This document shows, piece after piece, positions 50,053 to 64,000 of a DNA stretch of 64,000 nt (position 1 is its first letter; each line of letters begins with the position of its first letter). Position numbers and translations under genes: made by a program. This DNA is from Halorussus salinus (lineage in GTDB: Archaea; Halobacteriota; Halobacteria; Halobacteriales; Haladaptataceae), in contig NZ_SBIS02000013.1 in assembly GCF_004765815.2 (NCBI RefSeq), positions 124,001-188,000 of the forward strand. The letters run 5' to 3'. The notes beneath the pieces were generated by a model, which worked only from the letters and a program-made list of their open reading frames with translations, was not told where the DNA came from and searched no databases.

Positions 50053-51929
50053 GTGTCCGCAACCAGATTCGCCCCGGCAGGTTCGCACCCTATCTCGTTC
50101 GCCACCCACTGGCGAATCCCTGCCGAACACCAGTACGGCGACTGGGCGGACACACTCGCCGTCTACTACCTCCAACACGACAACCCGAACGCGACACTCG
50201 GCGAGCTGGCCGCAGACATCGAGATCGGCCTGAACCCCGACGACGGCGACCCACACGAGTTCATCAACCTGCCCGACGACCGAGCGACATGGCACCGCAA
50301 CTACACCCCACTTGAACCGTGGATTCGAGCGCACGTTCTCCGGCTCGCCAACGGCTGGAAGTCGAAGCGACTCGCATCCTACCTCGAAAACCACGCCAGC
50401 GTCACTCGAACCATGGGGTTCCGAGAAGCCTCGTGAAAGTCGCCCACGACAACAACATCCCGGCACCAGACGACGTGTTCCAACCCGAGAAACAGGACGG
50501 TGAGTCTGAGCGGTCGGAGCGCCGGTTGACCGAGCGGAAGATGCGGGAGGTCTGGCACGAGGCGAAGCCGTTGGTGATGGATACCTTCCATCTCGATAGA
50601 GGCCAGAACGCCCAGATTCCCGAAGGGAGCTTCTGGGAAGTCCAAGCACTCGCGGGCACCCAGCAAGACACTTTCACCGAAGGCGGTGTCGAAGCCTTCC
50701 GAACCGCCACAACCCGCCCGGAAGACCAGAAACACACGGGGAGAACCCACCGCCACCACCTCCAGAAGCACTCCGTCGAGGAGGTTCGACGGATGCTTCG
50801 GGATACAACCACCCGGCTGGTGCAACGCGCTCGGCATAACGGTGAGTTGCAGGGGAAGGTGTGGGCGGCTATCGACGTGACGAAGGGGAATCCGTGGGCT
50901 GGTGAGATAGAGTGGACTGACGACAACCATCCCGAGGACCCCTACATTCTCGGGTATAAGGACGACGAGGACCGGAGCGCCGACTACTACTTCCAGTGGG
51001 CAACCATCCAAGTCGTCGGCCTCGACGTCCCACTCGTCCTCGACGCCTTCCCCCTCTCGCGTGGAACATCGAAGGCGGAGATCGTGGACGAACTCCTCTC
51101 CGGCGGTCTCGACATTCTGCCGGACATCGAGTTGGTGATGATGGACCGAGAGTTCGACTCGGAGGGCGTGAAAAACGTCTGTGACGACCACGGTGTCTAC
51201 TACTTGAATCCGGCGCGGAAGAACACCCACGAACAGGTGATGTGTACGAAGCTCCGGAAGGCTGGGAAGAAAGTGCGGGTGGTGAAACAGAGCGCGTTCG
51301 AAGGCCCATCGCGCAAGCGGCTGTACCTCCCCGCCCGCAACACCGACATTTTCGAACCCAGCGACACCGACGACCGCGACACTAGTGACGGTGACAGTGG
51401 TGAGAAGAGTGAGGAGGAGCGTCGGGAGGGGTACCGGCAGAAGCACGCCCAAGCGTTCGTCGAGACGTTCGACGTGGACGTAGACGACGAAGACGGCCAC
51501 ATGTTCAGCGGGGTTGTTGACGAGGTGCGCGAGCAGGAAGCCGCCGAGGACGACCGTGTTGATGACGAGGCTGTGGAGGCGTATGCGTTGTTCGAGACGA
51601 ACCATCCGGCGCTGGACCCCGAGGACTCAGCGACCGAAGAGCAGTTGCTCGGACGAGTGCGTGGGTTTGTTGAACGGTACAGCCATCGCTGGGGAATCGA
51701 GAACGGCTACAAGCAAATCAAACAGTTCCGTGTCCGGACGACCTCGAAGGACCACCGGTATCGGTATTTCTGCTTCGCGTTCGCGTGCGTCCTGTATAAC
51801 GTCTGGCGGCTCGTGGATTTGCTGGTGAAGCTGGCGTTCGAGGACGACCCGGACTACAGTCCGCGAGTGAGCGCGGGCGTGTTCTTGACGCTCGCCAGCC
51901 AGAATCTCGGCCTCGACCCACCCGACTAG
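50053..51929 (+). pseudogene. DDE transposase with frameshift near 50430
   Basis: Frame 1 from 50053 reads MSATRFAPAGSHPISFATHW to T-M-G-F-R-E-A (about 50430). The next frame continues SLVKVAHDNNIPAPDDVFQP to 51929. Reassembled length is about 625 residues. Catalytic candidates are D in KVWAAIDVTKGNPW, D in LVMMDREFDSEG and E in HRWGIENGYKQIKQFR, an IS4-like DDE pattern common in haloarchaea. A very acidic D/E insertion lies before the last motif. The shift may be a mutation or programmed; terminal repeats were not found. Confidence 0.7.
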
Positions 51930-52984: not shown

Positions 52985-53950
52985 ATGGCCCGGCCAACCC
53001 GCCAGCAAACCAATAATAGTGACCACACGATAGAAACCGAGGAAGACGAAACTGAGAGTCAGAGCTGTCCGGAGTGTGACTCCGAGAATCTCACTACAAA
53101 TGGCGAAAGTAGCGAAGTTGTCTGTGAGGATTGTGGACTCGTCATCGAAGAGCAGATGATTGACCGCGGACCAGAATGGCGTGCGTTCAATCATAGCGAA
53201 CGACGAGACAAGAGCCGTGTCGGCGCGCCGACCACGCAGACGATGCACGACAAAGGATTAACTACCCAAATCGACTGGAAAGACAAAGACGCCTATGGGC
53301 GGTCCCTTTCCTCCGAGAAGCGCAGTCAGATGCATCGCCTCCGCAAGTGGCAAGAACGCATCCGCACGAAGGACGCGGGTGAACGCAACCTCCAGTTCGC
53401 ACTTTCAGAAATCGACCGCATGGCTTCTGCACTCGGCGTCCCGCGCTCAGTTCGTGAGGTTGCGTCGGTCACGTACCGACGTGCCCTCAAAGAGGATTTG
53501 ATTCGTGGTCGGTCCATTGAAGGCGTCGCCACTGGCTGTCTCTATGCAGCATGTCGGCAGGAAGGGATTCCCCGAAGTCTCGAAGAGGTCTCCGAGGTCT
53601 CTCGTGTTGACCAGAAGGAAATCGGCCGGACGTACCGGTATGTCGCAAAGGAACTCGGTCTGAAAATGAAGCCAGTAGACCCCAAAGAGTACGTGCCACG
53701 GTTCACGTCCGAACTGGATGTCAGTGAAGAGGTGAAATTGAAGGCGAACGAGATTATTGATGAGTCGACAGAGCAGGGCCTTCTTTCCGGAAAATCCCCG
53801 ACAGGCTTCGCAGCTGCCGCCATATATGCGGCGTCACTCCTCTGTAATGAGAAGCAAACTCAGCGTGAGGTTGCCGAGGTTGCACAAGTGACCGAAGTCA
53901 CAATCCGAAATCGATATCAAGAGCAGATCGAAGCATTCGGCATCTATTGA
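52985..53950 (+). CDS. tfb: Transcription initiation factor B (TFB)
   Basis: A 321-residue archaeal TFIIB homologue. The N-terminal zinc ribbon is CPECDSENL...CEDCG (residues 25-55), followed by the B-reader/linker [21 protein letters not shown]. Two cyclin repeats span about 120-215 and 220-315 with the signature [11 protein letters not shown] and [12 protein letters not shown]. Haloarchaea carry many TFB copies with different promoter preferences. An AT-rich stretch (AATAATGTGAGATTCAATTA) precedes the start. Confidence 0.95.
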
Positions 53951-54486: not shown

Positions 54487-57400
54487 ATGAATAGTACACG
54501 AAACACGACACGACTCTTAGCAGTCATATTTTCGATGCTGCTAGTGACATCGGCAGTAGGAGCCGGCGCGCTGTCGAGTGTCGGGGTAACGCAAGCACAG
54601 CAAGCCAGCGACGTGCTGTACCGAGTGAACGCCGGCGGCAACACCGTGACACCATCGAATGGCCCGGACTGGTCCGGAAGCTACAACCAGTACGTGACCG
54701 GCGGATCATCGTACGGCTCGTACAGTGGCACAGTGTCTCTCGACAGTTCCGTGCCGTCAGGAACGCCGACGGACATTTTCGGCAATGAAGTGTACGGCGA
54801 CCAAAACTGGACCTTCTCTGACAGCATCCAAAGCGGCCAACAGTACGAGGTCCGTCTCTACTTCGCCGAAATATACCACGGCGTGACCAACAACAATGGC
54901 GCGGACGCACGAGTCTTCGACGTCGCCATCGAGGGCCAGACGGTACTGAACGACTATGACATCGCCGCCGACGTCGGAACAGAGACCGGCGTGATGAAGT
55001 CGTTCACCGTCACGCCCTCCGACGGCACTCTTGATATTGACCTCACGACTGAGGTCGACAACGCCAAGATTTCGGCAATCGAAATCGTCGAAGCACAGCC
55101 CGAACCAAATACACTCGGCGGTCCGTCGAGCGTCAACTTCGGGCAAGTCATCACTGAGAGCTCAGCGACAGAAACGGTCACCGTGACGAATCTCGGTGAC
55201 GACGGTGACCCGAGCATCGACATCTCGGATATCTCCCTCTCGGGCTCGGACACAGACGCGTTCTCGGCAGGGTCGGTGTCTCAGACGTCGCTCGCACCTG
55301 GCGAGTCCGCCAACATCCCGGTGACATTCTCACCGTCCGCGGTCGCCGTCGAAAGCGCAACGCTCGAAGTCAGCCATAGTGGGTCGAACACGCCGCTGAC
55401 AGTCGATCTCTCCGGCGAGGGCGCAAGCGCGGTGGAGCCCGACTTCCAGAAGAGCAAACTTCAGGGCTTCAGCGCGGGCAACCCGACGGCCATCGACTTC
55501 GGGCCTGATGGGCGAGCCTACGTCTCGACGCAGGGTGGCACGGTGTACGCACTCAACATCACTCGGACCGGCGACAACAGCTACACGGTCGAAAACGAGG
55601 TCCAGATCGACGCCATCAAACAGATCCCGAATCACGACGACACCGGTGATTACAACCCCGGCGAAAACAATCGCCAGATTACTGGTCTAACCGTTGGCGG
55701 AACCGTCGAGAATCCAGTAGTGTACGTCTCCTCATCTGACCCGTCTATCGACGTCGGGCAAGATGACGATGACACGGACACCAACTCTGGAGCGATTTCG
55801 CGACTCGAAATCTCGCCTGGAAGCGATGGCGTGCTCGAAAGTAGCGAAATCAACCACGACGTATTGGTCATGGGGCTGCCTCGTTCCGAGGAGAACCACG
55901 CGACCAATGGGATCGATCTCTCGGCCGACGGCGATACGCTGTACGTCGCACAGGGCGGTCACACCAACAAGGGCGCGCCCGGCGACAACTTCGGTCATAC
56001 GCCCGAATACGCGCTCTCGGCGGCCATCCTCGAAATCAACATCGCACAAATCGAGAACAACTACCAAGCGAAGGACCTCGCGACCTACGACCCGCAGGGT
56101 AGCGATCAGTCGTACCCGGCTCTCGACTTCTACTACGCCATTCCCACCATCCAGAACGACGATGCCACGGACGGCGACGACCTGCCGTTCGGCGGCAACG
56201 ACGGGATCAACCAAGCGAAGCTAATCGAGGGCGGGCCGGTGCAGATTTACTCGGCCGGGTATCGCAACCCCTACGACCTGGTCGTGACCGAAAGCGGCCA
56301 GATTTACGCCGCGGATCATGGTCCGAACGGCGGCTGGGGCGGCCAGCCAGCTGACGCGAACGGGAACATCGTGGCCGACGCCGCGTCGGTGACAAACCAC
56401 CCCAACGAGGATGGCAGCTTCTCGACCAACGACCAGCTCGTCAAGGTCGATGAGGGCGACTACGGCGGCCACGCGGCGCCGATCCGTGCCAACCCGACCG
56501 AGGCGGATATCTACGACGCGAACGGGAACATGATCTTCGACATTACAGCGTCGAACTCCCCCGTTCCGGAGAGCATGGTGAACCCGGTCGAGGCCGACTA
56601 CATCCCGCCGACGAGCGGGTCACCCGACCCGGGCGCCCCGGCGGGCAGTGCGAACACGATGGAGACCGAGAGCGGTGACAAAGTCTTGTTCGGCCCGACC
56701 GGCGGAACGGCCGAGTACACCGCCTCGAACTTCGGCGGCGCGATGGAGGGCGACCTCCTGCAAGTCGAACTCGGCGGTGATATCGAGCGCATCGAACTGA
56801 GCGCCGACGGCTCAACGGTCACGAACGTCGAGACGCTCGCTAACACCGGCGGCCCGCTTGGCATCACCGCACAGGACGACGACGAAACGTTCGCCGGGAC
56901 GGTGTGGACCGCGAACCATGGTGGTAACGACGTTACCATCCTTGAGCCGGTCGACTACGGCGATGACAGCGACGGCGGTGACGGCCAGCAATGCAGCGGC
57001 GCCGACGACGCCTCGCTTGACGAGGACGGCGACGGCTACGACAACGCTGATGAACTCGACGCGGGTACCGACCCATGCTCGGCGGCCTCCACGCCCGCCG
57101 ACTTCGACGGTGACAGCACCTCGAACGTCAACGACCCCGACGACGACAACGACGGGCTTGCTGACACCGACGACCCGTTCGCGGTTGACGCGAACAACGG
57201 CATCGACACCACGCTCCCCGTCCAGCACGACCTGTCGGAGCTCAGCCTGTTCGGCGAGAACGGCCAGGGCTGGACCGGGCTAATGACCAATGGAACCGAC
57301 TACCAGGACCTCTACGACACATCCCAGATGACGATTGGCGGCGCGGCGGAGGTCCTGACGGTTGAGCAGGTCCCGCCGGGTGACGCGTACTCGGACACGA

Positions 57401-60400
57401 ATACCCAACAGTACGCGTTCCAGTACGGCGTCAATCCGCCGGACGAACCGTTCGTCGTCGAGACGACGGTGAGTAGCTTCCCGGACGACCCGGCGAACTA
57501 CCAGTCCGCTGGTCTGTACATTGGCACTGGTGATCAGGCGAACTACACCAAGCTGGTCGTCGCGGCCGACGGTGGCAACGGCGGTATCCAGTTCGCGAAG
57601 GAGGTTGAAGATACCTTCAGCAGTCAGCCAACCGTCAGTGACAGCGCGGTCACGACGTCGAAGACAACGCTCCGCCTGACGGTTGACCCGACGACCGATC
57701 CCGCACCAGACAACGATGTCGACGAAGTCGCGGTGACTGCCGAGTATGAGGTCAACGGGAACGCAACTGAGGTCGGAACCACGGCCGTCCCGGCGACGTG
57801 GCTCGACACGTCCGACGGCGTCGCGCCCGCGGTGGGCGTCATCGCGACGTCTAACGGCGCGAGTCCGTTCCCGGCGACGTGGACCGACATCTCGGCCGAG
57901 TACGTGACTCCGCCTGTGAACCAGCCGCCGACGGCTTCGTTCACTTACTCGCCGAGTCAGCCGAACGCCACCGAACAGGTGACGCTCGATGCGTCCGGAG
58001 CGAGTGATTCGGACGGCTCTATTGCGAGCTACAAGTGGGACTTTGACGGCGACGGTCAGACCGACGCGACCGGCCAGCAGGTCACTCACGCGTTCGAAGC
58101 GGCAGGCGACTACCCGGTCACGCTAAACGTCACTGACGACGACGGCGCGAACGACTCGACGACCCAGACGGTCTCGGTCGTCGAGGTACCAAGCAAACCC
58201 CAGTCGGTCGCCGCGATTGTCGCAAGCCAGAGCGACGGTCCCGACGCGAACGACAGCAAAATCGACCTCCAGGAGATTCAGACCGCAATCGATTGGTGGG
58301 CTGAGGACGACCCCGTCCCAGGCACCGACGGCCAGACGCTGGGCCTCCAGGAGATTCAACAGCTCATCGATATGTGGGCTGAGGACGAATCGGTCGACGG
58401 TGGCGAGGGCGACCAGCCTGCCGCCACTGGCTCCGCGCTGGTCGAGATCACGCCCGACACGGGCCTCGAAACCAGCACCTACGGCAGCGGCTCCTACCAG
58501 GTCACGAACACCGGCGAGAAAAACATCACGTCGGTCTCCTTCGACCTGAGTAGTACTACACTCCCGGACATGGTGTTCGACCCGCAGGGCACCGCTGGTG
58601 ACCCGACCGGTGAAGGCCTCAACATCGCGAGCGAGGGCGACACCAATATCCTCACCGAGCCCGGCACCGGCGAGGCGTTCAGCCAACCCCACAACGGTCA
58701 GAACGCCGACGACGGCTACGACGTGATGACCGTCGAGTTCGGCGACTTCCAGCCCGGTGAACAGGCCACCTTCTGGGCCGACAATGACCCAACCTCCATC
58801 AAGGGCGCGACCATCGGCTCCCAGGAGGCTGGCCCGGTCTCCGGACTGGAACTGGCCCGCGCGACGGTGACGGTTACCTACGAGGACGGCACCACCCAGA
58901 CCACCCAGCTAATGGGCGACGGGAGCGACGGCGGCGCGACCGCCGTCGTCAACGGCAACGAGGCACCGGCGCCGACCATCGGTGCCCAGGACGTCTCGCT
59001 CGATTCGAGTGCGCTCGACGACTACCACAGCGCGGCGACGGTCTCGTCAGCCAGCCAGACCATCACGGTCACCGGACAGCCTGGCGAGACGGTCACGCTG
59101 GTGCGCGTCGAGGGCGAACTCACGCTGAAGAACGTCCCGGAGTACGATGGAACGACCGGCTACAACGTTGAGGCCTACGAGGCCAACGACGCCGAGGCGG
59201 TCGAGTACTACACGGCCACGCTCGACTCGAACGGCGAGGCGACGATTCCGGTCACGCTGACCAACACGACCGGCGATGAGGATGCGGGCAACGCGGGTTA
59301 CAACTACTTCGTGGCCGCGCACGGTGAGGCCTCCGGCAACATGGGCCTCGCGTCGAACGTCGCAGTCCTGAAGTACGAGGAGGGTGCTGACTCCGGCGGT
59401 GACACCGGTTCCGCCGACTTCGCGGTCACTGCCAACAGCGGCGTTGACGCGAGCACCTACGGCGCCAACTCATTCGAGGTCACGAACACTGGCGATAAGC
59501 AGATTACGTCGGTCACCTACGACCTGAGTTCAGCGGCGTTCCCTGACGTCGTCTTTGACCCGCAGGGGACCGCCGGCGACTCGGGCTCGAAGGGCTTCAC
59601 GCCCGACAGCGGCTCAAGCACAACCGGTCTTCAGGGCGGTTCGTTTGCCGCGCCACACAACGGCCAGAACGCTGACGACGGCTACGACGAGCTAACTGCG
59701 ACGTTCAACGACTTCCAGAACGGCGAGACATTCGCCTTCTCGGTTGACATCGACCCGACCAGCATCAAGAACGCCCAGGGAACCGGCGCTGCGGGCTCGG
59801 TCTCCGGGCTCGAGATGTCGGGCGCGACGGTGACTGTTGCGTACGCTGACGGCACCACCCAGACGACCCAGTTGTTTGGTGACAGCAGCGACGGCGGCTC
59901 GCAGGCGACCGCGAAAGCGGACGTTGCGAGTGCGCCCAGCCTAGCCGTCGACGGCGTCTCACTCGACGCGAGCGCCCTCGACGGCCAGCACAGCGCCGCA
60001 ACCGTCTCATCGGCCAGCCAGACTGTCACGGTCTCCGGTCCTGCGGACGCGACCGTGGAACTGCTCCACATCGAGGGGCAGCTCGAACTCGCCAACCAGG
60101 CCGACGGCTACGACCTCGAGGCATACGAAGCCAACACCGCCGAACAGGCCAGCTACCAGACCGTTCAGCTCGGCAGCGACGGCCAGGCCACGGTCGACGT
60201 GACCCTGACCAACACCTCGAGCAGCGGCGCCGAGGGCGGGTTCAACTACTTCGTCGCGGCCGTCCAGGACGCCAGCGGCGACACCGGCCAGACCTCGAAC
60301 GTGGTCGCGCTGAAGTACGACCAGAACGCCGACTCCGGTTCGGACGACGGCGGTTCGTCGAGCCAGCAAGTGCTCCACCGCGTGAACGCCGGTGAGGGGA

Positions 60401-60894
60401 CGACGCTCTCCGCTACGGACGACGGTCCCGACTGGACCGGCGTTGCGGACACGAGTTCGCAGTACCTCGCCTCGGTCGCCGAATCAAGCGCCGGGAACTA
60501 CTGTGGCGGCGCAAACATCACACCCACCGAGTCGGTTCCGTCGAATACCCCTGACGCGGTGTACGATTGCGAGCGGTACGGCAACTCCACGTGGCAGTTC
60601 TCAGTGGATCCTGGTCAGGAGGTTGAGGTTCGACTCTACCACGGTAATCAGTTCTCCGGTGCCAGCAACCCTAGCGACCGCCAGTTCAACGTCTCTATCG
60701 AAGGCCAGCAGGTCCTAAGTCAGTACGACCCCGTAGCCGACGTCGGCCATGCGAACGGGACGATGAAGAGCTTCGTCGTCACCGACGATGGAGACGGCAT
60801 CATCAGTGTCACCTTCGAGCAGGGAGCGGCCGAAAATCCGCAGGTGAACGCCATCGAAATCGTAACAAACGACGATTCTAACGGAGGGAGCTGA
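54487..60894 (+). CDS. Giant secreted protein: malectin, beta-propeller, PKD and dockerin-like domains
   Basis: A 2135-residue secreted protein. Signal peptide 1-38. Domains read in order: malectin-like 42-203 (LYRVNAGG, RVFDVAIEGQTVL); choice-of-anchor/ASPM-type Ig 208-315; sugar-dehydrogenase-like beta-propeller about 317-820 (AIDFGPDGRAYVST, YAADHGPNGGWGG); thrombospondin-3-like acidic Ca repeats 841-901 (DEDGDGYDNADELDAGTDP); lectin-like 911-1141; PKD 1143-1233; dockerin-like pair 1235-1304 (LQEIQTAIDWWAEDDPVPGT, LQEIQQLIDMWAED); two copies of a 315-residue beta module 1315-1953; second malectin 1960-2131 (LHRVNAGEG). No C-terminal anchor. Probably binds and possibly oxidises sugars outside the cell. 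Confidence 0.8.
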   Translation: MNSTRNTTRLLAVIFSMLLVTSAVGAGALSSVGVTQAQQASDVLYRVNAGGNTVTPSNGPDWSGSYNQYVTGGSSYGSYSGTVSLDSSVPSGTPTDIFGNEVYGDQNWTFSDSIQSGQQYEVRLYFAEIYHGVTNNNGADARVFDVAIEGQTVLNDYDIAADVGTETGVMKSFTVTPSDGTLDIDLTTEVDNAKISAIEIVEAQPEPNTLGGPSSVNFGQVITESSATETVTVTNLGDDGDPSIDISDISLSGSDTDAFSAGSVSQTSLAPGESANIPVTFSPSAVAVESATLEVSHSGSNTPLTVDLSGEGASAVEPDFQKSKLQGFSAGNPTAIDFGPDGRAYVSTQGGTVYALNITRTGDNSYTVENEVQIDAIKQIPNHDDTGDYNPGENNRQITGLTVGGTVENPVVYVSSSDPSIDVGQDDDDTDTNSGAISRLEISPGSDGVLESSEINHDVLVMGLPRSEENHATNGIDLSADGDTLYVAQGGHTNKGAPGDNFGHTPEYALSAAILEINIAQIENNYQAKDLATYDPQGSDQSYPALDFYYAIPTIQNDDATDGDDLPFGGNDGINQAKLIEGGPVQIYSAGYRNPYDLVVTESGQIYAADHGPNGGWGGQPADANGNIVADAASVTNHPNEDGSFSTNDQLVKVDEGDYGGHAAPIRANPTEADIYDANGNMIFDITASNSPVPESMVNPVEADYIPPTSGSPDPGAPAGSANTMETESGDKVLFGPTGGTAEYTASNFGGAMEGDLLQVELGGDIERIELSADGSTVTNVETLANTGGPLGITAQDDDETFAGTVWTANHGGNDVTILEPVDYGDDSDGGDGQQCSGADDASLDEDGDGYDNADELDAGTDPCSAASTPADFDGDSTSNVNDPDDDNDGLADTDDPFAVDANNGIDTTLPVQHDLSELSLFGENGQGWTGLMTNGTDYQDLYDTSQMTIGGAAEVLTVEQVPPGDAYSDTNTQQYAFQYGVNPPDEPFVVETTVSSFPDDPANYQSAGLYIGTGDQANYTKLVVAADGGNGGIQFAKEVEDTFSSQPTVSDSAVTTSKTTLRLTVDPTTDPAPDNDVDEVAVTAEYEVNGNATEVGTTAVPATWLDTSDGVAPAVGVIATSNGASPFPATWTDISAEYVTPPVNQPPTASFTYSPSQPNATEQVTLDASGASDSDGSIASYKWDFDGDGQTDATGQQVTHAFEAAGDYPVTLNVTDDDGANDSTTQTVSVVEVPSKPQSVAAIVASQSDGPDANDSKIDLQEIQTAIDWWAEDDPVPGTDGQTLGLQEIQQLIDMWAEDESVDGGEGDQPAATGSALVEITPDTGLETSTYGSGSYQVTNTGEKNITSVSFDLSSTTLPDMVFDPQGTAGDPTGEGLNIASEGDTNILTEPGTGEAFSQPHNGQNADDGYDVMTVEFGDFQPGEQATFWADNDPTSIKGATIGSQEAGPVSGLELARATVTVTYEDGTTQTTQLMGDGSDGGATAVVNGNEAPAPTIGAQDVSLDSSALDDYHSAATVSSASQTITVTGQPGETVTLVRVEGELTLKNVPEYDGTTGYNVEAYEANDAEAVEYYTATLDSNGEATIPVTLTNTTGDEDAGNAGYNYFVAAHGEASGNMGLASNVAVLKYEEGADSGGDTGSADFAVTANSGVDASTYGANSFEVTNTGDKQITSVTYDLSSAAFPDVVFDPQGTAGDSGSKGFTPDSGSSTTGLQGGSFAAPHNGQNADDGYDELTATFNDFQNGETFAFSVDIDPTSIKNAQGTGAAGSVSGLEMSGATVTVAYADGTTQTTQLFGDSSDGGSQATAKADVASAPSLAVDGVSLDASALDGQHSAATVSSASQTVTVSGPADATVELLHIEGQLELANQADGYDLEAYEANTAEQASYQTVQLGSDGQATVDVTLTNTSSSGAEGGFNYFVAAVQDASGDTGQTSNVVALKYDQNADSGSDDGGSSSQQVLHRVNAGEGTTLSATDDGPDWTGVADTSSQYLASVAESSAGNYCGGANITPTESVPSNTPDAVYDCERYGNSTWQFSVDPGQEVEVRLYHGNQFSGASNPSDRQFNVSIEGQQVLSQYDPVADVGHANGTMKSFVVTDDGDGIISVTFEQGAAENPQVNAIEIVTNDDSNGGS

Positions 60895-60896
60895 CG

Positions 60897-61229
60897 ATGC
60901 AGGCTCCTGATGATTGGGTTTGGACGCACAGTACGGGCGTCTCAATCACGCCCGTTACTTCGGCCGGACAGCGTACTGCAACGGCTCCTGTCCGGACCGA
61001 ACGCTGCAGCTCAAACCCATTCCCACTCGGCGATACTGACGGTGAGCATCCACTAGCTCACGTCAGCATCGGGCAGTCTGCTGGATCGAAGGCACGCTTG
61101 ACAGCCGTCGACGGTACCATCTCGAAATCGCGGGGTACGTCGACCGTCCGTACGATTGAGAGAGAATCGACTGCGGCGTTCGGTGTCGCAATCACAACCA
61201 ACACGATCTGTACAGGTGGTAGACAATGA
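60897..61229 (+). CDS. Hypothetical linker gene of the secreted operon
   Basis: A 110-residue product starting MQAPDDWVWTHSTGVSITPV. It starts 3 bp after the giant gene and overlaps the next one by 4 bp (ATGA), which argues for a real gene. Composition is rich in Thr, Ser and Arg without a signal peptide or a recognised fold, so it may also be a non-coding spacer that stays open by chance. Confidence 0.4.
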   Translation: MQAPDDWVWTHSTGVSITPVTSAGQRTATAPVRTERCSSNPFPLGDTDGEHPLAHVSIGQSAGSKARLTAVDGTISKSRGTSTVRTIERESTAAFGVAITTNTICTGGRQ

Positions 61230-63517
61230 AAACGGACAACACGCAGCGGTTCACACAGTTCACAGCTGTGAGTCTCGCGCTGTTGGTCCTGTTCTCGGCG
61301 TTCACGCCGGTCGGGACCGTCGGCGCGCAGTCAGCAGTATCGATTTCTCAGACAGCGACGACCGCCACGACTGTCGCGCCCGGCGACACCGTTATCCTCG
61401 AAACGACGGTGTCCGCCCCCGACGCGAACGGACCGGCGATCGACGTCGACCTACCTAACGGCTGGACGATTACCAATCCGTCATCCGATGGCGGTACGTA
61501 CAAGTCCGCTGTGAATCAGTGGGTCTGGCTCTCGGGCAGCCATACAGTAACCTACACTGTACAGGTACCCGAGGACGCCGCTGAGGGCGACTACATCGTC
61601 TCCGCCGAGGGGTCGGGTATTGATCCGGCAACGGACGAGCGGCTGACCGACACAATACAGACTACGATAACGGTCGATGAAAACCAGGCTCCGACCGCTG
61701 ACGCAGGGAGTGACCAGACAGTCGACGAGGGCGCGACGGTCACGCTTGATGGCGCAGCGTCAAGCGACCCTGACGGGGACGACCTGTCGTATTCCTGGAC
61801 TCAGACTGGCGGGCCCGACGTGACGCTAGGCGGCTCGAACACGGCGACGCCCTCATTCGACGCTCCAGCCGAACCACCACAGACCCAGACGTACACCTTC
61901 GAGCTTACCGTCTCTGACGGGCAGGCTAGTAGCACCGACACAGTAGACGTAACGGTCGAACCGGTCAACGATCCGCCGACCGCCGACGCGGGCGACGACC
62001 AGACGGTCACCGAAGGCAACTCGGTCCAGCTGTCGGGCGCAGGGAATGACGTGGACGATTCGTCCCTGTCGTACTCCTGGACTCAAACCGGCGGCCCTGT
62101 CGTGAGCCTCTCGGACGCGTCGGCTACCCAGCCGTCGTTCACTGCCCCGTCGATCGATAGCACGAGCACGCTGACCTTCGAGCTCACCGTTTCCGACGGG
62201 CAAGCCAGTAGTACTGATACGGTGACAGTCACCGTCCAGCCAACTGCCCCTGTGAATGACCCGCCGACCGCTGATGCGGGCGACGATCAAACGGTTCAAG
62301 AGGACGACCCGGTTAGTCTGGATGCTACAGGGTCTAACGACCCGAACGGCGACGACCTATCGTACTCGTGGACCCAAACTGGCGGTCAGTCGGTGACCCT
62401 GAATGACGCCGACACGGCGACCCCGACGCTCACTGCACCGAACGTCGACGCTGACGAGACGCTGACCTTCGAGGTTGCGGTTTCCGACGGCCAGACGACT
62501 GACACCGACACGGTGACCGTGACGGTAACCGCCGTTAACCAGCCACCGACCGCCGACTTCGACGCCGAACCGAGTTCACCCATACCGGGTGAGCCGGTTA
62601 CCTTCGACGCTAGCGCGTCGAGCGACGACGGCGCCATCACGAGCTACGAGTGGACTATCGAGACGACGGGCGGCCAGAGCCAGCAGACGCTCCTTGCGTC
62701 GGACTTCGAAAGCGGGTCGCTTGTGACCGACGGCTGGACCCATGATGCGATGGGTACCGAAGCAAGTGCGGGCGTCGACGCCAGCACCTCGAACTCCGGC
62801 AGTCAGTCGGCCTACCATCACGGTGGGCAAGGAGCTATTGTTTCGCCCGCGCTTGATGCGGGTGATGCTGGCTCGCTGACGGTCTCGTACTGGATTCAGA
62901 AGGGCGACGAGGCGTTCAGTGAGAATCCTGACGCGAATAGTGGCGAGGATCTGATCGTCGAGTACCTTGACGCGAATGGAAACTGGGTTGAGGTCGACCG
63001 CATTGAAGATAGCGTCGAACCTGGCGCTGAGACCACCGAGAGCGTGACTATCGACGCGGACGACGCACTCCATGATGGTTTCCAGCTCCGGTTCCATCAG
63101 GAAGGCGCGTCGGTCGCATCGGGCGATTACTGGCATGTCGACGATGTGTCCGTAGTTGCGACCACCGATGCAGGGTCCGGCATAGTCCAGACGTCGGGCC
63201 AGACCGTCTCGCACACGTTCGACCAACCCGGCAACTACGAGGTGACCCTGACGGTCACCGGTGACGACGGTGCGACGGACACGGTGATCAAGACGGTTGA
63301 GGTGTCCAACCAGCAACAGTCGCTGACGATTCCGGAAGCAGTCGCCGGTCAAGACGGCCAGCTTAGCACGTCCGACATTCAGCAGGCGATTAGCTGGTGG
63401 ACTAACGACGAGGCTGTGCCTGGCACTGACGGCGGAACCATCGACACGCAAACAATGCAGGAACTCATCGACATGTGGGTTGAAAACGAACCAGTCGGGA
63501 ACGGAGGTGGCGCATAA
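61226..63517 (+). CDS. Secreted multidomain protein with REJ/PKD repeats and dockerin-like end
   Basis: A 763-residue secreted protein. Signal peptide 1-34. An N-terminal Ig-like domain (38-150, TVAPGDTVILETTV, IDVDLPNGWTI) is repeated in the next gene. Three REJ/PKD-like units follow, each N/P-X-P-P-T-A-D-A-G-X-D-Q-T-V...LSYSWTQTGG. Then a PKD domain (about 437-698) is split by an inserted lectin/MAM-like jelly-roll of about 165 residues (ASDFESGSLVTDGWTHDA to GDYWHVDDVSV). A dockerin-like pair ends it (700-758: DIQQAISWWTNDEAVPGTDG, QELIDMWVENEPV). Confidence 0.8.
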   Translation: MKTDNTQRFTQFTAVSLALLVLFSAFTPVGTVGAQSAVSISQTATTATTVAPGDTVILETTVSAPDANGPAIDVDLPNGWTITNPSSDGGTYKSAVNQWVWLSGSHTVTYTVQVPEDAAEGDYIVSAEGSGIDPATDERLTDTIQTTITVDENQAPTADAGSDQTVDEGATVTLDGAASSDPDGDDLSYSWTQTGGPDVTLGGSNTATPSFDAPAEPPQTQTYTFELTVSDGQASSTDTVDVTVEPVNDPPTADAGDDQTVTEGNSVQLSGAGNDVDDSSLSYSWTQTGGPVVSLSDASATQPSFTAPSIDSTSTLTFELTVSDGQASSTDTVTVTVQPTAPVNDPPTADAGDDQTVQEDDPVSLDATGSNDPNGDDLSYSWTQTGGQSVTLNDADTATPTLTAPNVDADETLTFEVAVSDGQTTDTDTVTVTVTAVNQPPTADFDAEPSSPIPGEPVTFDASASSDDGAITSYEWTIETTGGQSQQTLLASDFESGSLVTDGWTHDAMGTEASAGVDASTSNSGSQSAYHHGGQGAIVSPALDAGDAGSLTVSYWIQKGDEAFSENPDANSGEDLIVEYLDANGNWVEVDRIEDSVEPGAETTESVTIDADDALHDGFQLRFHQEGASVASGDYWHVDDVSVVATTDAGSGIVQTSGQTVSHTFDQPGNYEVTLTVTGDDGATDTVIKTVEVSNQQQSLTIPEAVAGQDGQLSTSDIQQAISWWTNDEAVPGTDGGTIDTQTMQELIDMWVENEPVGNGGGA

Positions 63518-64000
63518 TGACGCAGGCTGACGGCATCATGGTTACGGGGGTAACTGCACTCACCGTCGCCCTGCTCGTCGCTGTCGCCGCTTTCGCACCC
63601 GTCGCCGCGGTACCACAACCTGACGACAGTATCGGCCTCCAACAGTCTGTCGCTGGTGACGCGACAGTCATACCTGGTGACACCGTCACGCTCGAAACCA
63701 CGGTCAACGCGACGGGGTACAATGCGCCCGGCGTTGATGTGGCGCTCCCTGATGGCTGGACTATCCAGAGTCAGTCGACCAACGGGCCGTTCACCTACAA
63801 GGCGAGCACCACTGAGTGGGTTGGGCTCTCCGGCGGCGAGTACACCATCACCTACACTGTCGCTGTTCCCAATGATGTCACCGCTGGCGACTACACCATT
63901 AGCGTCGACGGGTCGGCCATCGACCCTGACACTGACGAGTTCGTCACCCAGAGCGACGGTTCCACGATAACTGTCCAAGACGACTCTACCACAACCGTCG
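63517..64000 (+). CDS. Secreted protein paralogous to the upstream gene, 3' end outside window
   Basis: It starts on the stop of the upstream gene (TAATG) and runs off the window after 161 codons. A signal peptide (VTGVTALTVALLVAVAAFAP) is followed by an Ig-like domain clearly homologous to the N-terminal domain of the preceding protein (TVIPGDTVTLETTV, VDVALPDGWTI, YTITYTVAVPNDVTAGDYTI, IDPDTDE). The shared module suggests tandem duplication and a common binding role. Confidence 0.75.
   Translation, partial: MTQADGIMVTGVTALTVALLVAVAAFAPVAAVPQPDDSIGLQQSVAGDATVIPGDTVTLETTVNATGYNAPGVDVALPDGWTIQSQSTNGPFTYKASTTEWVGLSGGEYTITYTVAVPNDVTAGDYTISVDGSAIDPDTDEFVTQSDGSTITVQDDSTTTV

Follow-up and report, generated by a model that had tools for sequence, protein, structure and literature searches.

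A predicted cell-surface docking scaffold in Halorussus salinus that joins a divergent cohesin-dockerin pair to a candidate DMW-NEW3 pair

Results

Analysis of a 64,000-nucleotide stretch of the Halorussus salinus genome (hereafter the window; bases 124001-188000 of contig C8, in a genome of 4.75 Mb on 11 contigs) and of the genes that adjoin it suggests that this locus quite probably encodes a docking scaffold at the cell surface, in which a divergent cohesin-dockerin pair occurs together with a second module pair, DMW-NEW3. On balance, we favor the reading that DMW-NEW3 is a docking pair of its own, with a receptor unrelated to the cohesin-dockerin system, that it attaches secreted enzymes and glycan binders to anchored or scaffold proteins across haloarchaea, and that it is combined on one scaffold with the divergent cohesin-dockerin pair. 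A preliminary description of the window had proposed an archaeal extracellular scaffold, and the set of putative surface-attached docking modules found here supports this proposal, with dockerin and anchored cohesin-fold genes next door.

Gene order and domain content of the operon

The locus had been read as an operon of giant secreted proteins. Its domains and DMW modules were recovered, but its boundary has to be moved, as the operon runs beyond position 64000: the window cuts ORF 3, and a fourth gene lies downstream. The start codon of ORF 3 overlaps the stop of the adaptor gene (ORF 2), and ORF 4 begins a few bases after ORF 3. The signal peptides and membrane helices given here were assigned by eye. 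The features in the window are as follows.

54487-60894, + strand: gene 1 (ORF 1), giant secreted protein of 2135 aa with a signal peptide
54613-55080 (aa 43-198), + strand: first malectin domain (PF11721, E 3e-30)
55387-56976 (aa 301-830), + strand: conserved propeller region, with relatives in haloarchaea and bacteria
57919-58176 (aa 1145-1230), + strand: PKD domain (PF18911, E 9e-20)
58201-58395, + strand: DMW module 1, internal in the giant protein, an EF-hand-like putative docking module
58435-60354 (aa 1317-1642 and 1643-1956), + strand: tandem duplicated beta module (55% identity, E 3e-109)
60364-60870 (approximate limits, read from the sequence), + strand: second malectin domain (second PF11721 stretch)
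61226-63517, + strand: gene 2 (ORF 2), adaptor protein of 763 aa with a signal peptide, 331 bp downstream of ORF 1
61334-61675, + strand: NEW3-like Ig module of the adaptor, putative DMW receptor
63323-63496, + strand: DMW module 2, C-terminal in the adaptor (three helices modelled, mean pLDDT 88.5)
63517-64000 (part in the window), + strand: start of gene 3 (ORF 3), the scaffold gene, whose full protein has 523 aa (L003:11518-13089)
63628-63975, + strand: first NEW3-like module of the scaffold

The giant protein consists of a malectin domain, an Ig domain of the ASH/choice-of-anchor-D kind, the propeller, PKD, the internal DMW, two beta modules of ~315 aa, and the second malectin domain. Several elements of the preliminary description hold: both malectin domains are PF11721 stretches of ORF 1, the PKD/REJ units correspond to PKD in ORF 1 (PF18911) and K319L-like/PKD units in ORF 2, the dockerin-like motif pairs reported from two different proteins are the DMW modules of ORF 1 and ORF 2, and the ~315-residue beta module does occur as a tandem duplicate. 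Others hold in part. The presumed sugar-dehydrogenase-like propeller is a conserved propeller region (82% mean column identity across 8 haloarchaea), but no Pfam or NCBIfam model used names it, and the proposed calcium-binding repeats correspond to a weak, sub-threshold TSP3 match in ORF 1. Pfam names no catalytic domain in the giant protein.

The adaptor carries a signal peptide, an N-terminal NEW3-like module, PKD/K319L units and the C-terminal DMW, while the signal peptide of the scaffold protein precedes two NEW3-like modules, one cohesin-fold module and, at the C-terminus, the dockerin. In the product of gene 4, the anchor, a signal peptide and a cohesin-fold module are followed by a low-complexity linker and a membrane helix at the C-terminus. 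The combination of giant protein, NEW3-cohesin-dockerin scaffold and anchored cohesin-fold protein is kept in about 20 genomes. Upstream of the operon, an IS4-type transposase-like ORF (50053-51929) and a TFB-like transcription factor gene (52985-53950) were recognized by eye.

A divergent cohesin-fold module and a true dockerin

A whole-genome search for the Pfam dockerin, followed by reading of the sequence past the window end, led to the cohesin-fold modules of genes 3 and 4. Their structure was represented by an AlphaFold2 model of a Halobellus member (A8), built from 21 relatives (mean pLDDT 92.9), to which the copies of the window genome itself were aligned by profile. Foldseek returned 63 matches to this model at E <= 0.001; among the best 50 of them, 49 were cohesins, including Archaeoglobus 2xdh, and the single exception was an adhesin CLIPPER domain at rank 47. 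Comparison by VIA superimposed the model on 6kge_A with Z 15.3 and rmsd 2.2 over 128 of 133 residues, i.e., the cohesin beta-sandwich fold, and placed the Archaeoglobus fulgidus cohesin 2xdh among the top structural matches (Z 14.6). In addition, hhalign aligned the family with 24 archaeal PF00963 cohesins over 114 columns (E 7.4e-7, probability 91.8%). PF00963 itself had no match in this genome at E <= 0.001 and was absent among the 25 families listed for 31 cohesin-fold members scanned singly, and no cohesin turned up when PDB sequences were searched with the cohesin-like profile by hmmsearch. The relation surfaced only by fold comparison and profile-profile comparison. Judged by the predicted structure, the module shared by genes 3 and 4 represents a diverged branch of the cohesin fold and not a PF00963 member, and it is labelled divergent because the Pfam model misses it.

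The C-terminus of gene 3 is a dockerin of type I (PF00404, 34.6 bits against a cut-off of 22.9; 2.5e-9 in the genome search). Two complete calcium-binding F-hand loops, DINGDGSVTMND and DFNGDGQFTILD, can be read from its sequence, and the calcium-ligand positions are conserved in the alignment. The Pfam dockerin search of the whole genome gave two matches, one of them 0.9 kb beyond the window end; the other protein is a subtilase with a terminal dockerin on contig C9 (L005), whose neighbour is a cohesin-like protein anchored by a PGF-type C-terminus. With a cohesin-fold module and a true dockerin immediately beyond the window end, the comparison with cohesin-dockerin systems made in the preliminary description goes beyond analogy, although DMW itself, on which the comparison had been based, is not recognized as a dockerin.

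Chains of such modules also occur elsewhere in haloarchaea. In L130 and L131, a dockerin protein is followed by two proteins of the order cohesin-cohesin-dockerin and by one with three cohesin-fold modules; chain-like cohesin-fold/dockerin operons of this kind (also L129 and L132-L143) resemble multi-tier scaffoldins.

DMW, a putative docking module on unrelated proteins

The DMW module has ~60 residues in two similar helix-ending halves (..IQxAIxWW.. VPxTxG ..IQxLIxxW). The two copies in the window are 46-50% identical (E 1e-12), and a third copy in the genome, on contig C9, adjoins an anchored NEW3 gene. Members occur in 49 of 391 haloarchaeal genomes, from 26 of 84 genera, a spread far from chance.

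DMW was compared with dockerins at several levels. PF00404 does not match the two window proteins and is not in the family list for 45 DMW members, in which EF-hand models score weakly. A complete canonical EF-hand loop is present in the first half of 7 of 60 members and in neither window copy, and the second half has a degenerate loop only; two complete calcium loops, as in a dockerin, were not found in DMW. Structure prediction gave a confident three-helix model. Dockerins top its list of solved structures in VIA, with weak scores (best 4dh2_D at Z 3.4, next 3.1), whereas Foldseek found nothing significant (best E 3.8), and hhalign aligned only 19 columns of DMW with the haloarchaeal dockerin. 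The identification of DMW as a plain dockerin was rejected on the PF00404 result, the weak fold match and these 19 columns; we regard it as a module that is probably used like a dockerin without being one.

The proteins that carry DMW include a subtilase (L021), a trypsin-like protease (L047), a polysaccharide deacetylase (L068), CBM-bearing proteins (L049 and L052), LVIVD propellers (L022 and L024) and G8/PKD/plastocyanin proteins (L058 and L059). As far as sequences can tell, this is the distribution that would be expected of an attachment module. Such a range also bears on a different explanation, in which only the cohesin-fold/dockerin pair docks, DMW being a stabilizing EF-hand-like domain or a surface-sorting signal and NEW3 the Ig stalk spacer of a co-transcribed anchor. 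DMW is C-terminal in many proteins, like a sorting signal, for some DMW proteins no NEW3 lies closer than 10 kb, and NEW3/DUF11 modules belong to a broad Ig-like superfamily of archaeal surface proteins. However, DMW lies inside the giant proteins and so is no sorting tail to be cleaved off, its secreted carriers are unrelated to one another, as would suit a docking module, and NEW3 is not always a stalk, since some adaptors combine two or three NEW3 modules with a DMW of their own (L032 and L045). We regard this explanation as rather unlikely, yet worth keeping in mind.

Two recurrent arrangements were observed along the way. DMW proteins of ~335 aa in which no signal peptide is obvious form a family (L025, L044, L050, L051, L053, L056, L064 and L065) whose genes are mostly followed by an anchored NEW3 gene, and L022 and L024 share a pair formed by an LVIVD-propeller DMW protein and a protein with two NEW3 modules and a DUF192 domain.

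The NEW3-like module is the genomic partner of DMW

The duplicated beta module had been put forward as the receptor of DMW. It is indeed duplicated and shares the giant protein with DMW, but it is restricted to the giant protein, its halves and relatives, is missing from loci in which DMW sits on other proteins, including the simple DMW-NEW3 loci, and is retained in Halogeometricum pallidum and two bacterial relatives, where no DMW was found. Its best score with the NEW3 and cohesin-like models is an unconvincing 9.0 bits. The beta module was rejected as docking receptor, and docking of DMW into it is highly improbable.

The genomic partner of DMW is instead the NEW3-like Ig module. Over 391 haloarchaeal genomes, in figures that ignore shared ancestry, NEW3 is found in 42 of the 49 genomes with DMW against 9 expected (odds ratio 56), dockerin and cohesin fold occur together in 133 genomes (43 genera) against 74 expected (odds ratio 18), and the cross-pairs are weaker (odds ratios of 4.5 for DMW-cohesin and 2.9 for DMW-dockerin). 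The cohesin-fold module as such was found in 166 of these genomes.

At the level of loci, 66 stretches, almost all of them surrounding a DMW gene, were scanned with the four module models (DMW, NEW3, cohesin-fold and dockerin). A NEW3 model trained on 7 loci located NEW3 within 6 kb (>=40 bits) in 41 of 57 further DMW loci, on the same strand in 37 of the 41. Chance neighbours should be rare, given that ~135 NEW3 matches at E <= 1e-8 were listed over 391 whole genomes of a few Mb each. The reverse relation, in which 42 of 44 strong NEW3 matches (>=100 bits) lie near DMW, is partly circular because the model was trained mostly on DMW neighbours; most NEW3-like matches below 80 bits have no DMW. 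NEW3 was not nearby in several DMW loci, such as L047, L049, L052, L065, L069 and the weak matches L077-L083.

The two pairs appear to be separable, because simple loci keep them apart: L021-L025, L044, L050, L051, L053, L056, L058 and L059 contain DMW and NEW3 without a cohesin-fold module, and most of L129-L143 contain dockerin and cohesin fold without DMW or NEW3. This separation is relevant to the idea that DMW docks into cohesin-fold modules like a true dockerin, with NEW3 as a mere linker. DMW is EF-hand-like, the weak VIA matches mentioned above are led by dockerins, and the large operons do contain cohesin-fold modules. Nevertheless, among 20 strong DMW loci without a cohesin-like match in the stretch, 13 have NEW3 within 6 kb (cut-offs for "strong" picked after the data were seen), the association of DMW with cohesin is far below that with NEW3, and nearly every scaffold has a PF00404-type dockerin as the natural partner of its cohesin. 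We hold this idea to be improbable, and prefer NEW3 as the candidate receptor of DMW.

The scaffold protein scores with PF10633 (NPCBM_assoc; 29.1 bits, cut-off 24.4), and the NEW3 proteins of L021-L025 have DUF11 or PF10633 above cut-off. The putative receptor thus scores, in several members, with the NEW3/DUF11 Ig-like repeats of archaeal surface proteins (PF10633 and PF01345); unlike these general repeats, the subfamily described here (LPDGW ... YK.STNEW.W) is concentrated beside DMW genes, by the partly circular count given above. A hidden-cohesin identity of NEW3 was dropped, because hhalign gave a probability of 44% over 48 columns, mainly in the N-terminal strands.

We also opened 12 loci that were positive for NEW3 and negative for DMW. 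EF-type or similar modules were nearby in 4 of them, and nothing convincing was seen in the other 8. In L149, L150 and L155, ORFs near NEW3 contain diverged EF-type modules in a similar layout (YDTNDNGQI..., YDTNNNGQL...), perhaps pointing to a wider docking-module family. In L154 (3337-9500), a NEW3 protein with a PGF-type C-terminus lies beside a 1208-aa protein with a degenerate two-repeat module (GYDDVMDIIQQFNNGNASYEDVMDAIAQFN) at its C-terminus, possibly a further docking variant.

Relatives of the giant protein

Relatives of the giant protein's locus were gathered with its propeller as query. Two genomes have the giant protein divided between two genes.

L035:6631-15211: split giant genes, the first ending in a dockerin and the second starting with a cohesin-fold module
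L063:6759-15233: split giant genes of the same arrangement

To judge from the sequences, it looks as if docking had replaced a covalent link in these two cases. The giant protein of Halogeometricum pallidum (L089) is intact (2526 aa) and without DMW, and neither scaffold nor anchor was found within 10 kb of it. None of seven bacterial loci with related propellers carries any of the four modules.

Discussion

Domains can share an operon without touching, and we infer physical binding within each pair, and which partner takes which, from sequence. In the arrangement that we propose, the anchor encoded by gene 4 would hold the scaffold of gene 3, whose dockerin would plug into the cohesin-fold module of the anchor. 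The two NEW3 modules of the scaffold would then be the docking sites for DMW of the giant protein and of the adaptor, the NEW3 of the adaptor itself may let chains lengthen, and the scaffold's own cohesin-fold module could accept a further dockerin-bearing protein. On contig C9, the subtilase, the other PF00404 dockerin protein of this genome, has an anchored cohesin-fold protein of its own next to it. A role in glycan capture or degradation at the cell surface is suggested, capture being proposed because of the malectin domains.

The closest known parallels are bacterial cellulosomes (CipA/OlpA of C. thermocellum and the multi-tier scaffoldins of Ruminococcus flavefaciens), which share C-terminal dockerins, non-catalytic scaffolds with cohesins and dockerins, and terminal cohesin-bearing proteins; the likeness to scaffoldin tiers is seen in the chains of L130 and L131. 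The scaffold architecture is present here, and a dockerin subtilase (L005) as well as DMW-bearing proteases and a deacetylase exist. In contrast to the bacterial systems, the host is a haloarchaeon, its cohesins are too divergent for PF00963 in this genome, the gene 4 protein is anchored by a membrane helix at its C-terminus, the scaffold bears modules of a second pair (DMW-NEW3) as well, and the giant protein lacks a Pfam-named catalytic domain.

Cohesin-dockerin docking is already known in archaea (2xdh; PMC9012536). Archaeoglobus fulgidus, an archaeon with surface dockerins, has the same cohesin fold (2xdh), and in ANME archaea scaffoldin-like proteins combine one dockerin with as many as five cohesins (PMC9012536). 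According to the latter report, which refers to Peer et al. 2009, large multi-cohesin scaffoldins were lacking in archaea that have these domains, the ANME cases excepted. Unlike these earlier archaeal examples, the haloarchaeal modules form conserved multi-gene chains. Type I dockerins on secreted haloarchaeal proteins have been reported from Natronoglomus mannanivorans (PMC10963439) and from glycosaminoglycan users (PMC13260240), where they were proposed to aid substrate binding and no cohesin was named; the dockerin described here is of the same type, and its cohesin-fold partner offers docking as an explanation instead. In the literature searched, to which Peer et al. 2009 did not belong, we found neither haloarchaeal cohesins nor the DMW-NEW3 pair described. 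The cohesin-dockerin part is possibly a variant of known docking, and the DMW-NEW3 pair possibly new.

Haloarchaeal dockerins have so far been annotated without a known partner, and the cohesin-fold module, given its broad occurrence in haloarchaeal genomes, is a candidate. If the proposed arrangement is true, haloarchaea would build surface complexes akin to cellulosomes that escape standard domain searches, docking through a second pair with an Ig-type receptor would be a novelty, and salt-tolerant modules may become available for designer enzyme scaffolds.
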